From Muribaculaceae bacterium (lineage in GTDB: Bacteria; Bacteroidota; Bacteroidia; Bacteroidales; Muribaculaceae): a DNA stretch of 53,782 nucleotides. The translations under genes and the position numbers were made by a program. The notes under the pieces were generated by a model. The model saw nothing but the letters and a program-made list of their open reading frames with translations, was not told where the DNA came from and did not search any database. How positions within the stretch are numbered: the stretch's first letter is position 1; each line of letters begins with the position of its first letter. Positions 13,658 to 18,574 of this stretch are shown here, in pieces. The stretch covers positions 1-53,782 of the forward strand of contig JAGAUV010000014.1 in NCBI GenBank assembly GCA_017620635.1. Reading direction: 5' to 3'.

Positions 13658-13693
13658 CTCTGTGTTTCTGTATGCTTAAGGTTTTTACGACTG

Positions 13694-13701
13694 CAAATGT
13701 A
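13694..13701 (-). promoter_or_regulatory. -7 element for the SGNH hydrolase gene
   Basis: TACATTTG on the minus strand fits TAnnTTTG, 36 bases before the ATG at 13657. No -33 at standard spacing. It lies immediately beside the plus-strand tandem promoters of ftsY. Confidence 0.4.
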
Positions 13702-13708
13702 CAAAAAT

Positions 13709-13740
13709 TTTGTTTTGCTCTCGACTTATTCGTATCTTTG
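13709..13740 (+). promoter_or_regulatory. Tandem promoter copy 1 (distal) of ftsY
   Basis: TTTG (13709-13712), a 20-base spacer and TATCTTTG (13733-13740) fit the Bacteroidetes consensus fully. A transcript from here would run through copies 2 and 3 and carry a leader of roughly 170 bases. Confidence 0.75.
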
Positions 13741-13782
13741 ACTATCGTCTTAGATACTCTCGCTCGGCAAACCAAAATAAAT

Positions 13783-13814
13783 TTTGTTTTGCTCTCGACT
13801 TATTCGTATCTTTG
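13783..13814 (+). promoter_or_regulatory. Tandem promoter copy 2 of ftsY
   Basis: TTTG (13783-13786), 20-base spacer, TATCTTTG (13807-13814); identical to copy 1 across both boxes and the spacer. Confidence 0.75.
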
Positions 13815-13856
13815 ACTACTGTCTTAGATACTCTCGCTCGGCAAACCAAAATAAAT

Positions 13857-13888
13857 TTTGTTTTGCTCTCGACTTATTCGTATCTTTG
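13857..13888 (+). promoter_or_regulatory. Tandem promoter copy 3 (proximal, native) of ftsY
   Basis: TTTG (13857-13860), 20-base spacer, TATCTTTG (13881-13888), about 25 bases before the ftsY ATG at 13914. This copy sits at normal distance from the gene and is probably the ancestral promoter. Confidence 0.85.
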
Positions 13889-13913: not shown

Positions 13914-14876
13914 ATGGGATTCTTCGATTTCTTCAGCAAAGATAAAAAACAGAACCTCGACCGAGGCCTTCAAAAAACTAAAGAAGGTGTTTTCGGGAAA
14001 TTACGCCGTGCTTTTACCGGCAGGCGCACTATCGACGACGATTTCCTCGATGAGCTTGAGGAGATTTTTATCACAAGCGATGTCGGAGCGGAAACAACAC
14101 TCAAGATAATCGACCGCATCCAGGCCCGAGTGGCTCGCGACAAATATGTCGACATGGACGAGCTCAACGAGCTGCTGTGCCAGGAGATAAGCGATCTTCT
14201 TGCCGAAAACGACGCCACCGACGCGCCCGGCCAGTTCATGCCGCCGGCAGGGAAGAAACCGTATGTCATAATGGTTGTCGGAGTAAACGGCGTAGGCAAG
14301 ACAACGACAATAGGCAAACTCGCGCACCAGTACAAAATGGCCGGCAACAAAGTGATGCTCGGCGCGGCCGACACATTCCGTGCGGCAGCAATCGAGCAGC
14401 TCGACGAATGGGCCCGTCATGCCGACGTACCTGTTGTGAAGCAGAATCTCGGAAGCGACGCGGCAGCTGTTGCCTTCGACACTTTATCATCGGCGGTGGC
14501 CAACGATATTGATGTAGTGATCATCGATACGGCAGGACGTCTGCACAACAAGAAAGGCCTGATGGACGAGCTGTCGAAGATAAAACGAGTAATGGAGAAA
14601 GTAGTGCCCGGGGCACCCCACGAGGTGTTGCTTGTACTCGACGGCTCTACCGGCCAGAATGCTTTCGAACAGGCCCGTCAGTTCTCGGCCGCCACACAGG
14701 TAACACATCTTGCCGTTACCAAGCTCGACGGCACAGCTCGCGGCGGTGTCGTGATAGGCATCAGCGACCAGTTCAAGATACCTGTTAAATATATAGGCAT
14801 AGGCGAAGGCATCGACGACCTGCAGCTCTTCGACAAACGCGCATTCGTAAGTTCTCTATTCGGAAAACAGGAATGA
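13914..14876 (+). CDS. ftsY: Signal recognition particle receptor FtsY
   Basis: A 320-residue SRP-GTPase receptor that docks ribosome-SRP complexes at the SecYEG translocon. After a short N-terminal stretch it has the helical N domain and a G domain with 'GVNGVGKTTTIGKLA' (P-loop), 'DTFRAAAIEQL', 'VVIIDTAGRLHNKK', 'AVTKLDGTARGG' and the closing 'YIGIGEGIDDLQLF'. The acidic A domain of E. coli FtsY is absent, as is usual in Bacteroidetes. The frame stays open upstream through the 74-base repeats, but that sequence is promoter DNA; the true start is MGFFDFFSKD at 13914. The stop overlaps the rimO ATG (14873-14876). Confidence 0.97.
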   Translation: MGFFDFFSKDKKQNLDRGLQKTKEGVFGKLRRAFTGRRTIDDDFLDELEEIFITSDVGAETTLKIIDRIQARVARDKYVDMDELNELLCQEISDLLAENDATDAPGQFMPPAGKKPYVIMVVGVNGVGKTTTIGKLAHQYKMAGNKVMLGAADTFRAAAIEQLDEWARHADVPVVKQNLGSDAAAVAFDTLSSAVANDIDVVIIDTAGRLHNKKGLMDELSKIKRVMEKVVPGAPHEVLLVLDGSTGQNAFEQARQFSAATQVTHLAVTKLDGTARGGVVIGISDQFKIPVKYIGIGEGIDDLQLFDKRAFVSSLFGKQE

Positions 14877-16195
14877 CAAAACGCATTCACGTAAACATCT
14901 TCAGCCTGGGATGCTCAAAAAATCTTGTCGACAGCGAACGACTTGCCCGTCGGTTCAGCGATGCCGGCGTTGACATCGCATTTGATGAGGAAGTACCGCC
15001 GCACGGTTCTGTCGTAGTGGTAAACACATGCGGCTTCATAGGCGACGCCAAAGAGGAATCTGTCAACGAGCTTCTTCGCTTCATCGACCTTAAAAACCGC
15101 GGTCACATCAAGACCGTATATGTCATGGGCTGTCTCAGCGAGCGATACCGCGCCGACGTGGCCGAACAGATGCCCGAGCTCGACGGCATTTTCGGCAAAT
15201 TCGACTGGACCGGAATAGTCGACGACGTAATAGCGCGACATACCGACGAACCGCTCAAGCCGTGGCAACGCATCCTTTCCACCGACAGACACTACACATA
15301 CATCAAGATATCCGAGGGCTGCAACCGTTTCTGCGCCTTCTGCGCCATACCTCTTATCACAGGCCGGCATCACTCGCGCCGTCCTGAAGAGATACTCGAG
15401 GAAGTGGCCGAACTCGCGGCAAAAGGCACTCGCGAATTTAACATCATAGCCCAGGATCTATCGTCGTATGGCCGCGACCTCGACAACGCCGGCGACAACG
15501 CGCTGGCCGATCTTATCGACCGTATGGCCGACATAGAAGGTGTCGGGATGATACGCCTTCACTATGCTTATCCGTCCGATTTCCCCTACAGCATACTGCC
15601 TGTTATGGCTCGCCGCAAGGAGGTGTGCAAATATCTCGACATCGCCCTGCAGCATATCGACGATACCGTACTTTCCAACATGCAGCGACACATCAACGGC
15701 GAACAGACACGCACGCTGCTCGAGCGTATACGCCGGGAAGTGCCGGGCATACACATCCGCACGACAATGATGGTCGGATTCCCGGGCGAGGACGATGCCG
15801 CGTTCGAGCGTCTACTTGATTTCGTGCGCGAACAACGCTTCGAGCGACTGGGCGCATTCGCATACTGCGAGGAAGAGGATACCTTCGCGGCCCGAAACTT
15901 AGAAGACAATATACCCGAGCAAGTCAAGCAGCGACGCCTCGAGAAACTGATGGCCGTACAGGAAGAGATAGCAGCCGAAGTGGCCGACTCTGAAATAGGC
16001 AAGACACTGCGTGTGATCATTGATGAATACGATCCCGACATGAAGAGCTGGATAGGACGCTCGGAATTTGACTCGCCCGAAGTAGACTGCAATGTTTTCG
16101 TCGCCGCCGACAAAGAGCTCGAGACAGGACAGATTTACAATGTCCTCATTACCGACAGCGAAGGATTTGACCTCTATGGAAGCATTGAATCTTAA
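14873..16195 (+). CDS. rimO: Ribosomal protein S12 (aspartate) methylthiotransferase RimO
   Basis: A 440-residue radical-SAM enzyme that adds a methylthio group to the conserved Asp of ribosomal protein S12. The N-terminal MTTase domain has its three cluster cysteines in 'FSLGCSKNLVDSE', 'VVVNTCGFIGDA' and 'YVMGCLSERY'. The radical-SAM CxxxCxxC is in 'SEGCNRFCAFCAIP' near residue 150, and a TRAM-like RNA/protein-binding end closes with 'DSEGFDLYG'. These place it with RimO rather than MiaB. It overlaps ftsY by four bases and menF by twenty, so expression probably depends on the tandem ftsY promoters. Confidence 0.96.
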   Translation: MTKRIHVNIFSLGCSKNLVDSERLARRFSDAGVDIAFDEEVPPHGSVVVVNTCGFIGDAKEESVNELLRFIDLKNRGHIKTVYVMGCLSERYRADVAEQMPELDGIFGKFDWTGIVDDVIARHTDEPLKPWQRILSTDRHYTYIKISEGCNRFCAFCAIPLITGRHHSRRPEEILEEVAELAAKGTREFNIIAQDLSSYGRDLDNAGDNALADLIDRMADIEGVGMIRLHYAYPSDFPYSILPVMARRKEVCKYLDIALQHIDDTVLSNMQRHINGEQTRTLLERIRREVPGIHIRTTMMVGFPGEDDAAFERLLDFVREQRFERLGAFAYCEEEDTFAARNLEDNIPEQVKQRRLEKLMAVQEEIAAEVADSEIGKTLRVIIDEYDPDMKSWIGRSEFDSPEVDCNVFVAADKELETGQIYNVLITDSEGFDLYGSIES

Positions 16196-17114
16196 CGCGC
16201 CGTTCCTCATCTGCCGACTGCCGGGAGAGTCTGCGCTGAAGGTCTACACCGACGCGGCACTGACCGACAATGAGATTACATTCGGCGACTTCCATATATC
16301 GCGATGGCTGTCCGAAAAAATCGGGTTGCTGCGTGTCGACAACCGTCCTACGGGCTTCGACGAATACCGTGCCGCTGTAGAAACAGCCGCCCGGCACTCG
16401 GCCGAACGCCGGGGCAAGACGGTTATCGCCCGTACCATCTGTGGCACATTCAAGAGCTTCGCGCCTCTCGAGATGGCCCGAAAATACTTCAAGGCATTCC
16501 CGTCCATGTTCTGCTTTATGTTCTACCATCCTCGCACGGGATACTGGATGAGCGCAAGCCCCGAGCTGCTTGTGGAGTTCGACGGCAGCAAAGGCACCAC
16601 ACGGGCTCTCGCCGGCACTCGCAAGGCGTGTGAGAACACGGCATGGGACAAGAAGAACCTCGACGAACACGAAATGGTTGTTCGCGACATACGCCAACGT
16701 GTAAGAGACCTCGGCAATGACTGGTCATGCTTCGCTAAAGACAGCCACAACATGCGTTACGGCAATATAGAGCATCTGTGTACGCCGATAGACATAGCAT
16801 ACCACGGCGACGATGTGGCCGACATATCTTCCGTCATGGAAGCTCTCAACCCGACTCCGGCCGTTGGCGGTTATCCTCGCGAAGAAGCTCTTGCCGACAT
16901 CGCCGGACTTGAACCGATCGACCGCAAGTTCTATGGCGGCGCTATCCGGAACAAGACCCTTGCCTATATCATACTCCGCTGCGTACACTTCGACCACAAG
17001 CACTGGTGCGTGTACACCGGCAGCGGCATTACCGGCCTCTCGACAGCCGACGACGAATGGGCCGAGACCGAGGCCAAAGCCCGGCCGCTCATCAATCTTC
17101 TCTCCTTATTTTAA
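16176..17114 (+). CDS. menF: Isochorismate synthase (chorismate-binding enzyme)
   Basis: A 312-residue chorismate-utilising enzyme that isomerises chorismate to isochorismate, the entry to menaquinone synthesis. Active-site blocks are present: 'RALAGTRKACEN', 'KNLDEHEMVVRDI', 'LNPTPAVGGYPREEA', 'IDRKFYGGAIRNK' and the C-terminal 'YTGSGITGLSTADDEWAE'. It is shorter than many MenF/EntC proteins because the N-terminal region is abbreviated. The ATG at 16176 lies inside the end of rimO; a longer in-frame start at 16092 reads deeper into rimO and is unlikely. No menD, menB or menE follows, unlike the usual Bacteroides men cluster. Confidence 0.85.
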   Translation: MEALNLNAPFLICRLPGESALKVYTDAALTDNEITFGDFHISRWLSEKIGLLRVDNRPTGFDEYRAAVETAARHSAERRGKTVIARTICGTFKSFAPLEMARKYFKAFPSMFCFMFYHPRTGYWMSASPELLVEFDGSKGTTRALAGTRKACENTAWDKKNLDEHEMVVRDIRQRVRDLGNDWSCFAKDSHNMRYGNIEHLCTPIDIAYHGDDVADISSVMEALNPTPAVGGYPREEALADIAGLEPIDRKFYGGAIRNKTLAYIILRCVHFDHKHWCVYTGSGITGLSTADDEWAETEAKARPLINLLSLF

Positions 17115-17128
17115 CCCCTCCTTTCTCC

Positions 17129-18574
17129 ATGCCCAGTCTGAACAACTCAACTTCACGACATATACTCGCGCTTGTAGGGCTATCGTTAAGCATACTTCTG
17201 TGTCTGTCGGTCTTGCCGTGGAGCAGGCTTACCAATAATGCTCTGAAGGACTTCAACCTGTTCGAAGACCTCTTTCCGCCCAAGACCGCACCGACAGTCA
17301 CGACGGCCTCGAGCATAGTGGATCCTGAGCTCGAAGAGCTTATGGCACAAGCCGGCGCATCGGGCGACGGGACGACCTTGCCCGGCGGAGCTCCGCTTGC
17401 AGCCGATACCATCGCCACCGATTCGGTAGCGACAGATTCGGTCTGTCAGCCCGAGCCGGAAATCGAGACAGCAAAGGCAATAGAAGGCTCCGTCGCCATC
17501 GAGAACTACACCGGCGGCGAGATGCTCGCGCATTACCGCCAAGCTCTGACAGAGGCAAAAGAGCGCACTGTGCGTGTCGCCGTGATAGGTGATTCTTATA
17601 TCGAAGGCGATATATTCTGCTCGCACCTGCGCGACATACTACAACAGCGCTATGGCGGTTCGGGTGTAGGATTCATGCCTGCACACTGCGAGTTTCCGGG
17701 CTTCAGGCAGACGGTGGCCCAGTCGAGCAACGGATGGGAGATGCACGATATCCGAAACATGAGCCGCAAAGACACCCTGCGCACACTGTCAAGCGATTAC
17801 GGCATCGGACAAAGCAATGCATTCTCCATGTTCGAAGGGCGTAAGAAATTCCCCACCACAAAGTCGTGGGACCGCACGACATTCGTTTTCCTGGCCAAAC
17901 AGAGCGGCTCGATAAACATAACGGATGCTTCGGGCTTGGCCCAGACATTTGAAGTCACACCCTCAGACTACCCTCAGGCGATATCGCTTGAAGGCACTAC
18001 TACGAAGGCCAGGATATCGTGCTCGGTGCCCGGCATAGTCGCTCTCGGCACATATCTCGATGCGGCAAAGGGCGTGCAGCTCGACTGTATGTCGATACGC
18101 GGCAACTCGGGTCTCGGCACGAGCCGGATCAATGCCGGCTTATGCCGACGGATAGCTCAATGGGCCGACTACGACCTGATAATCGTGGAGTTCGGCATGA
18201 ATGTGCTCAGCGCCGAACAGACCGACTACACACCCTATATGATCAACATGACTGCCGGCATCAGACATCTGCAGGTATGCTATCCCGACGCCGACATAAT
18301 AATAATGGGTGTCGGCGACCGCGGAGTAAAAGCAGGCACAGCCATCGAGTCGCTGCCCACGATAGAGGCAATGACAAAAGCGCAGCGCGAGACCGCACGC
18401 AGAGCCGGTGTACACTTCTGGGACACACGCGCAGCGATGGGCGGCGACAAGGCGGCTGTTGACTGGCGCAAGCGTAAACTTCTAAACGCCGACTACATAC
18501 ACCTCAACCACGACGGAGGCGGCGAACTGGCTAACATTTTCGACAAGGCACTGACTCATGCGCTGGAAGAATAG
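17129..18574 (+). CDS. Membrane-anchored or secreted SGNH hydrolase with inserted domain (first of a pair)
   Basis: A 481-residue protein. It has one N-terminal hydrophobic segment (about residues 11-30), then a low-complexity linker rich in Asp, Thr and Ala (with the repeated ATDSV). An SGNH domain starts at 'VRVAVIGDSYIEGDIF' (nucleophile Ser near residue 155). A beta-rich insert of about 170 residues separates it from block III 'LIIVEFGMNVLS', and the His is in 'ADYIHLNHDGGGEL'. This split layout recalls bacterial cell-wall or polysaccharide O-acetylesterases such as Ape1/PatB, by analogy only. The start at 17129 follows menF by 14 bases and the end overlaps the next hydrolase by 17 bases. 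Confidence 0.75.
   Translation: MPSLNNSTSRHILALVGLSLSILLCLSVLPWSRLTNNALKDFNLFEDLFPPKTAPTVTTASSIVDPELEELMAQAGASGDGTTLPGGAPLAADTIATDSVATDSVCQPEPEIETAKAIEGSVAIENYTGGEMLAHYRQALTEAKERTVRVAVIGDSYIEGDIFCSHLRDILQQRYGGSGVGFMPAHCEFPGFRQTVAQSSNGWEMHDIRNMSRKDTLRTLSSDYGIGQSNAFSMFEGRKKFPTTKSWDRTTFVFLAKQSGSINITDASGLAQTFEVTPSDYPQAISLEGTTTKARISCSVPGIVALGTYLDAAKGVQLDCMSIRGNSGLGTSRINAGLCRRIAQWADYDLIIVEFGMNVLSAEQTDYTPYMINMTAGIRHLQVCYPDADIIIMGVGDRGVKAGTAIESLPTIEAMTKAQRETARRAGVHFWDTRAAMGGDKAAVDWRKRKLLNADYIHLNHDGGGELANIFDKALTHALEE

Follow-up and report, generated by a model that had tools for sequence, protein, structure and literature searches.

A tandem promoter array upstream of ftsY in a Muribaculaceae bacterium probably belongs to a propagating family of hairpin-forming DNA repeats

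The closest published system that we found for the repeat described here is BrickBuilt, a MITE of Porphyromonas gingivalis. According to the available part of its description, BrickBuilt is intergenic and dispersed, occurs in 19 copies in one strain and consists of a 23-nt repeat flanked by a leader and a tail, the ends being inverted; it is reported to contain promoter elements and to be transcribed in both directions (PMC4596501). It shares with the present repeat the host order Bacteroidales, the intergenic and dispersed distribution, tandem repetition and the presence of promoter elements. As far as that description goes, it differs in unit and structure. The repeat studied here is a 74-base quasi-palindrome in which one arm of the fold is a one-directional promoter, is located at gene starts and occurs in many genera; a 23-nt repeat with leader and tail was not found, the period being 74. 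Terminal inverted repeats of fixed sequence, as in a MITE, are likewise lacking, since the outer arms are complementary but variable across the order.

Elements of the REP, BIME and REPIN type are also small dispersed palindromes with a conserved structure and are sometimes arranged in tandem. In the accessible portions of the REP/RAYT literature, the REPs examined sit close to the 3′ ends of ORFs (PMC3733652), Bacteroidetes is one of the phyla for which CGTC repeats are reported (PMC3733652, PMC6006769), and 'atypical secondary structures' are mentioned around the Bacteroidetes Y1 subclass 2.6 (PMC6006769). The present repeat is palindromic, dispersed and intergenic, too. In contrast to REPs, it has no constant GT[AG]G foot, carries a promoter at gene starts and has no Y1 gene near its units in the retrieved loci. 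A constant GTAG/CGTC foot was absent by eye from both of our alignments (A1 and A2, see below), CGTC being seen only in some junction spacers. For the sigma-ABfr promoters of Bacteroides, the available text of PMC7366714 gives the consensus TAnnTTTG at −7 and TTTG near −33. The repeat has the same boxes; unlike in sigma-ABfr promoters, the stretch between them is conserved because it is part of the repeat.

A hairpin-promoter repeat family was not found described in the open-licence full-text literature. Two further systems offer partial parallels. Putative mobile promoters are promoter sequences copied to several unrelated genes of one genome, and a near-identical promoter before unrelated genes of one genome is what we observe here; the present repeat stands apart in that its fold is conserved at the DNA level, it grows in tandem and some of its relatives lack a promoter. 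Evidence on recent gain consists of empty orthologous sites and of nearest neighbours in the same genome, in a collection that holds one genome per species. Integron attC sites have variable palindromic stems, conserved unpaired positions and conserved core ends, and they are read as folded single strands. Variable but palindromic stems around conserved unpaired positions are found in our units as well. In contrast to attC sites, the conserved part is an internal loop and not the ends, no cassette was seen, and the neighbours look like housekeeping genes.

The window, i.e. the whole stretch of DNA analysed here, comprises 53,782 nucleotides of contig JAGAUV010000014.1 (assembly GCA_017620635.1). 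Tandem Repeats Finder reported positions 13705-13888 of the window with a period of 74, 2.5 copies and 98% matches, and a second repeat search gave spacings of 74 and 74 in the same array. By eye, the sole differences between the two full copies are two adjacent spacer bases (TATCG vs TACTG), and the third copy of the 74-base unit has only 36 bases. The pattern TTTG-N20-TATCTTTG was located three times, each time exactly (13709-13740, 13783-13814 and 13857-13888). A 28-base promoter core, searched with up to three mismatches allowed, had three matches in the window, all exact, and none in 100 shuffles. The first-pass annotation had described just this arrangement, including a complete promoter in each copy, and both the repeat search and the sequence agree with it. 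It had noted neither that the unit is dispersed through the genome nor that every unit contains a palindrome, so the term promoter repeat covers its anatomy incompletely. The gap between the last promoter and the ftsY ATG (13914) measures 25 nt. The features of the locus are as follows.

13705..13888, + strand: tandem array of about 2.5 units, period 74, 5′ of ftsY (repeat searches and sequence)
13705..13740, + strand: unit 1, distal, cut off halfway through the inner palindrome (weaker family-model match at 13675-13740, 42.9 bits)
13748..13814, + strand: unit 2, full (model R1 88.8 bits, model R2 75.9 bits)
13822..13888, + strand: unit 3, full, gene-proximal (R1 88.8 bits, R2 75.9 bits)
13767..13792, no strand: inner palindrome (stem B) of unit 2, right arm containing the −33 TTTG (sequence; pairing supported at family level)
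13841..13866, no strand: inner palindrome (stem B) of unit 3 (sequence; pairing supported at family level)
13732..13757, no strand: hairpin A at the unit 1/2 junction, GTATCT-TT-GAC / GTC-TT-AGATAC, includes the −7 box (sequence and family alignment)
13806..13831, no strand: hairpin A at the unit 2/3 junction (sequence and family alignment)
13709..13740, + strand: predicted promoter 1, −33 TTTG at 13709-13712, −7 TATCTTTG at 13733-13740
13783..13814, + strand: predicted promoter 2, −33 TTTG at 13783-13786, −7 TATCTTTG at 13807-13814
13857..13888, + strand: predicted promoter 3, gene-proximal, −33 TTTG at 13857-13860, −7 TATCTTTG at 13881-13888
13914..14876, + strand: ftsY, SRP receptor GTPase (Pfam SRP54, SRP54_N)
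14873..16195, + strand: rimO-like gene, overlapping the end of ftsY (UPF0004, Radical_SAM, TRAM_2; named by reading)
16092..17114, + strand: chorismate-binding enzyme, menF-like (Pfam scan of 16140-17111)
17006..18574: further open reading frame (position from the open reading frame list)

The last of these is followed by a GDSL-type gene and an FtsX-like permease gene. Promoter 3 is followed by CA, like many ordinary TAnnTTTGCA boxes in congeners. Alternatively, the right arm of hairpin A could find its partner in the −7 arm within the same unit.

The view of the array as a device of the ftsY operon is not supported, as the unit also precedes 20 further genes of the same genome, whose translations look unrelated by eye. 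This genome is a MAG of 2.195 Mb in 77 contigs with a completeness of 88.6%. A search with the array yielded 25 matches on 18 contigs, one of them being the window's own and another the reverse strand of an already counted palindrome. The 22 matches inspected besides the window's own represent single or tandem units, nearly all of which end in a TATCTTTG-like box, and this box end lies shortly before a gene or at a contig end. The genes behind units include ftsY, rex, cdsA, queD, mutL, uvrC and asnS (names by reading translations), and the last five of the 20 stand behind weak, partly decayed matches. The ftsY array probably represents three copies, one of them truncated, of the unit of a dispersed DNA repeat family, and we read it as part of a propagating, promoter-carrying repeat instead of a tuned ftsY promoter.

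Four of the 25 matches are located at contig ends, indicating that the repeat breaks the assembly, and the exact copy number in the source MAG is possibly collapsed. Both points could be taken to mean that the extra copies were produced by misassembly of short reads. We regard such an artefact as extremely improbable, because arrays of two to four units occur inside a single 3.3-Mb contig of another genome, G156 (read type not stated), and two-unit arrays are present in records whose titles indicate a strain or isolate (Alistipes sp. CHKCI003, Xylanibacter caecicola).

In a first sample, matches were obtained in 10 of 41 genomes including our own, one of them marginal. The structure-scoring model R1 detected the repeat in 90 of 226 genomes and 21 of 26 genera of the family (E up to 1e-3), in 44 of 392 genomes of the order (1e-5) and in three of 392 genomes sampled from the phylum (1e-4), with our own genome included each time. 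Model R2, which covers the fold with or without a promoter, matched 68 of 392 sampled Bacteroidales genomes and 44 of 204 genera (1e-5). Copy counts per genome are lower bounds, as a limited number of candidates was scored in each. The 22-mer TCTCGACTTATTCGTATCTTTG was present without mismatch in 71 stretches of the species-genome collection, with record titles naming Muribaculaceae, Porphyromonadaceae, Alistipes, Xylanibacter, Palleniella, Bacteroides and others. In several members from other families, the outer arms are different (e.g. ATTTTGC/GCAAAAT) and no −7 box is present at the end, but the inner loop and the pairing are retained; some others are promoter-like. Promoter-less relatives are nearly identical within one genome in two cases (L246-L248 in G817, L240-L245 in G746), and the G817 copies seem to be placed inside longer inverted repeats. 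Bacteroidales repeats were also present in MAG records titled Lachnospiraceae or Ruminococcus flavefaciens (L087, L089, L094, L113, L117, L138, L155), titles that may be wrong. The repeat was rejected as a marker of phages or plasmids: the phage collection gave four weak matches on unannotated faecal contigs, viral contigs gave one match of the junction pattern, and the plasmid collection gave no match.

The units have a defined position and orientation. Within 110 nt of the gene-proximal unit, the ATG of an ORF of at least 60 amino acids was found for 116 of 122 distinct units, as compared to 32 of 122 in a control using the other end and the other strand. The median distance between unit and ATG was 25.5 nt over all 122. 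In 30 of them, for instance mutL at L019:893, the start codon lies only 1-13 nt past the −7 TTTG, so that leaderless or nearly leaderless mRNAs would result. Flanks were complete for 152 arrays, a further 23 being truncated at an edge; of the 152, 77 contained one unit, 50 two, 19 three, four had four and two had five. The left ends of units are ragged, often falling in the middle of the inner stem. Seven adjoining, dissimilar units were found 5′ of ftsY in a genome titled Bacteroidales bacterium isolate C35 (L152:5794-6299, model R2), a different array at this gene, and an array with alternating stems was seen at L113.

The unit is a quasi-palindrome of about 67 bases, or 74 with the spacer, and has the layout AGATAC-TCACGCTCGG-(inner stem)-CTCTCGACTTATTC-GTATCT-TTG. 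The outer arms AGATAC and GTATCT enclose a conserved internal loop with TCACGCTCGG on one side and CTCTCGACTTATTC on the other. The sequence of the inner stem varies widely among loci, its arms remaining largely complementary throughout. In the source lineage, the −7 box (GTATCTTTG) forms the right outer arm, and the −33 TTTG usually falls within the right arm of the inner stem. Thus, the unit ends in a predicted promoter of the sigma-ABfr type.

Comparative data argue for conservation of this fold. Over the outer eight positions of 93 distinct inner stems, 6.32 positions were paired on average; when right arms were exchanged, the mean dropped to 4.63 with a maximum of 5.02 in 1000 shuffles. 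Alignment A1, comprising 53 of 57 non-redundant units, folds into an outer helix, in which AGATAC pairs with the −7 arm GTATCT, and an inner helix. In A1, 92.8% of the cells were paired as compared to 83.6 in shuffled alignments, and 72 double changes stood against 18.9; none of 500 shuffles reached either value. Alignment A2 (36 units) contained 134 double changes as compared to 42.2 after shuffling, again a value reached by none of 500 shuffles, but it leans towards pairing, as 26 of its units were hand-picked from model searches with longer or more divergent candidates omitted, and its members from other families had been found with the structure-scoring model R1.

A motif of this kind might be expected in a regulon or an RNA element, in which a factor common to these genes would bind the conserved loop or the palindrome. 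The conserved stretch between −33 and −7, which an ordinary promoter does not need, is compatible with such a factor, as is the lean of wobble cells to one strand over all A1 pairs (19 GT/TG vs 7 AC/CA). This lean is smaller on the 14 well aligned A1 pairs (8 vs 5) and absent on A2 (11 vs 10); overall, the strand bias is mixed and has no clear direction. Moreover, the stems vary as long as pairing is maintained, the genes behind the units look unrelated and change between congeners, and the loop is also kept in promoter-less copies. Rfam gave no relevant match for our own array and ten further loci. We therefore consider regulation of this type quite improbable. DNA is the simpler reading of the fold, because in a single unit transcription would start downstream of it; RNA is a conceivable alternative.

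At unit junctions, a short hairpin can also arise between the −7 arm and the left arm of the following unit. Position 10 of this junction hairpin was paired in 46 of 52 distinct junctions (25.0 after shuffling), and positions 7 and 8, which face the TT of TTTG, were T-T in 37 and 36 of the 52. The junction loop was TGC, TTC or TAC in 18 of 52, which corresponds to GNA on the other strand; GNA loops are a type found in very stable DNA mini-hairpins. The geometry of the junction also resembles core sites of CTnDOT/IntDOT-like tyrosine recombinases: GTATCTTTGAC-spacer-GTCTTAGATAC could be read as inverted binding arms around a crossover spacer, with native −7 boxes (GTAnnTTTGC) as targets, and the arrays end 3′ at TTTG, followed by CA in 59 of 122 gene-proximal units. 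The IntDOT consensus is GTANNTTTGC, for which no source was found in the open-licence literature. Relatives from other families have other outer arms, and for recombination of ordinary duplex DNA a circle of 74 bp would be very small; recombination at such core sites is likewise quite improbable.

Comparison with congeners, in which each species is represented by one genome and differences are thus differences between species, revealed a turnover of positions. The ftsY gene was located in 22 of 25 genomes of the genus. The array precedes it in two, our own genome with three promoters and G012 with two; the other 20 have none. By eye, 19 of these 20 have a TAnnTTTG box upstream; it immediately precedes ftsY in 18, and in G015 a tRNA-like stretch separates it from the gene. 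At least seven congeners have repeat matches elsewhere in the genome and none at ftsY. The first-pass annotation had proposed that the copy number could change by slippage. Unit number at ftsY does differ between genomes, isolate C35 having seven units there; slippage alone, however, explains neither the arrays of dissimilar units (L152, L113) nor the dispersal.

Among the orthologues of the 20 unit-bearing genes, units were found in one of nine in G012 and in none of four in G019; with ftsY added, G012 has two of ten. These orthologues were identified by one joined query, the remaining genes of the 20 had no usable match, and three extra G012 rows, one being another fragment of asnS and two being short and weak, were not counted. 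At rex, asnS and L011, leader homology to G012 resumes directly after TTTG. At the epimerase locus both flanks align and the promoter region of G012 is shorter. This 'empty' site could be a decayed unit, and part of the turnover may thus reflect loss instead of gain. Target-site duplications were not seen by eye in five alignments between our genome and G012, whose sites have diverged. Within genomes, units are more alike than expected: the nearest relative of a gene-proximal unit came from the same genome in 42 of 66 cases with 11.8 expected, a count in which some arrays of our own genome appear twice where contig ends overlap (C39/C68, C8/C70). Under the tie rule used for shuffling the value was 40, and 5000 label shuffles reached 26 at most. 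Gene conversion between old copies could account for this likeness.

All three array promoters at ftsY fit the sigma-ABfr consensus for both boxes and are intact at −7 and −33. Across the family, the −7 TTTG was intact in 116 of 120 gene-proximal but only 61 of 79 upstream copies (Fisher 3e-5), a comparison in which the named loci, found by an exact 22-mer including the −7 box, favour intact boxes. With pattern-selected loci excluded, the counts were 50 of 50 and 34 of 41 (p 0.003), and with the distal unit of each array excluded, 74 of 78 and 27 of 34 (p 0.018). At L200 and L185, two upstream copies share the same broken box and the last copy is intact. Upstream linkers and stems showed no decay with distance, by a loose measure in which some 'units' of low similarity are false. 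As the −7 box is better kept in gene-proximal copies, the last promoter seems to be under the strongest selection. The −33 TTTG was present at N19-21 in 84 of 97 units of the genus set as compared to 63 of 115 units of the named loci, so that promoter strength outside the genus is less sure.

These data bear on the proposal that the ftsY promoter was duplicated locally and kept for dosage or tuned by slippage. The intact boxes at ftsY fit a young array and likewise the dosage idea, and the seven units 5′ of ftsY in another Bacteroidales genome are also in line with it. Yet the more frequent loss of upstream −7 boxes runs against identical promoters being kept for dosage and leaves the notion that three promoters tune ftsY weak. 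Since, in addition, the family occurs genome-wide before unrelated genes and the array is absent at ftsY in 20 of 22 genomes of the genus, a purely local duplication appears improbable.

Taken as sequence evidence, the dispersal, the position and orientation at gene starts, the conserved fold and the tandem growth point to a propagating, hairpin-forming, promoter-carrying dispersed repeat family, which we consider the probable explanation. The similarity within genomes, the differing positions in congeners and the stronger conservation of gene-proximal −7 boxes point in the same direction. Against it stand the ragged left ends, the failure to see target-site duplications in the alignments inspected and the lack of a mobilising gene in the loci and genomes searched. 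The explanations discussed here overlap with each other and with this one. One alternative is that old promoter copies spread once and have been kept alike by host recombination, with no mobile element acting today. Gene conversion between arrays, unequal crossing-over within them and template switching that matches the quasi-palindrome arms would then suffice. Arms do change together with few wobble intermediates (23 double changes and no GT/AC cell at A1 pair 25-45), as expected if one event rewrites both arms; arrays grow in tandem with units mostly 73-75 apart, and no mobiliser was found among the Y1 loci and ORF clusters inspected. On the other hand, two of ten orthologous loci in common with G012 would demand many gains or losses, the arrays are heterogeneous, and arm correction leaves the conserved internal loop of promoter-less relatives unexplained. 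Host recombination as the sole cause is rather unlikely.

For the propagating repeat family, we propose that other genes receive a copy of the unit in their −7 box, where it would replace the ordinary promoter, because the 3′ end of the unit falls at the TTTG of a native TAnnTTTG. The gene-proximal copy would drive the gene, and upstream copies would mostly be passengers, possibly weakly active. Movement might proceed via a single-stranded DNA hairpin on which a nuclease or recombinase acts; alternatively, the template might be switched at the replication fork, with priming at the −7 box. We favour the hairpin route, though the two are not separable. A protein that recognises the DNA as a folded single strand would be expected to leave such a conserved loop between two varying stems. 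Template switching at quasi-palindromes would account for the paired changes, yet it offers no reason why promoter-less relatives keep the loop. More tentatively, it is conceivable that the repeat represents a new class of Bacteroidales mobile DNA: a promoter cassette of about 74 bases that folds into a hairpin, recognised through the conserved loop of its folded single strand, pasted into host −7 boxes by an enzyme, stacked like integron cassettes and re-promoting essential genes such as ftsY, with the promoter-less forms as relatives.

If the propagating family is real, the promoters of about 20 genes or more per genome in various gut Bacteroidales would be supplied by a spreading repeat whose turnover is faster than that of the genes under its control. 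This would matter for the evolution of expression in uncultured commensals. Short-read assemblies of such genomes can break or collapse at promoters. Both stems varying around a fixed internal loop form a structural signature, so that a search for the recognising protein is practical.

A Y1/RAYT transposase was rejected as the mover, as its presence does not track the repeats and none is adjacent to them in the retrieved loci. Y1_Tnp matches occurred in 16 of 25 genomes, both with and without repeats, and were absent from G001, G002 and G019, all of which bear repeats. Models R1 and R2 placed no unit within about 1.5 kb of Y1_Tnp in any of 38 retrieved loci, 33 of which came from repeat-bearing genomes and five from genomes without repeats; eight of 38 matches of one search had no locus. 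Copies flanking a Y1 transposase gene, as known for REPs, were thus not seen. By eye, the 14 largest ORF clusters around repeats, partly the same loci twice, contained no recombinase. In five Y1 loci, the five longest inverted repeats of each proved to be other palindromes, as did those seen by eye in the Y1 locus of our own genome. Another REP-like palindrome (atgcaacggctccgccgttgatat and variants) flanks the Y1 transposase of our own genome (L061:1-1200) and is present again at L015, 5′ of the unit array of queD.
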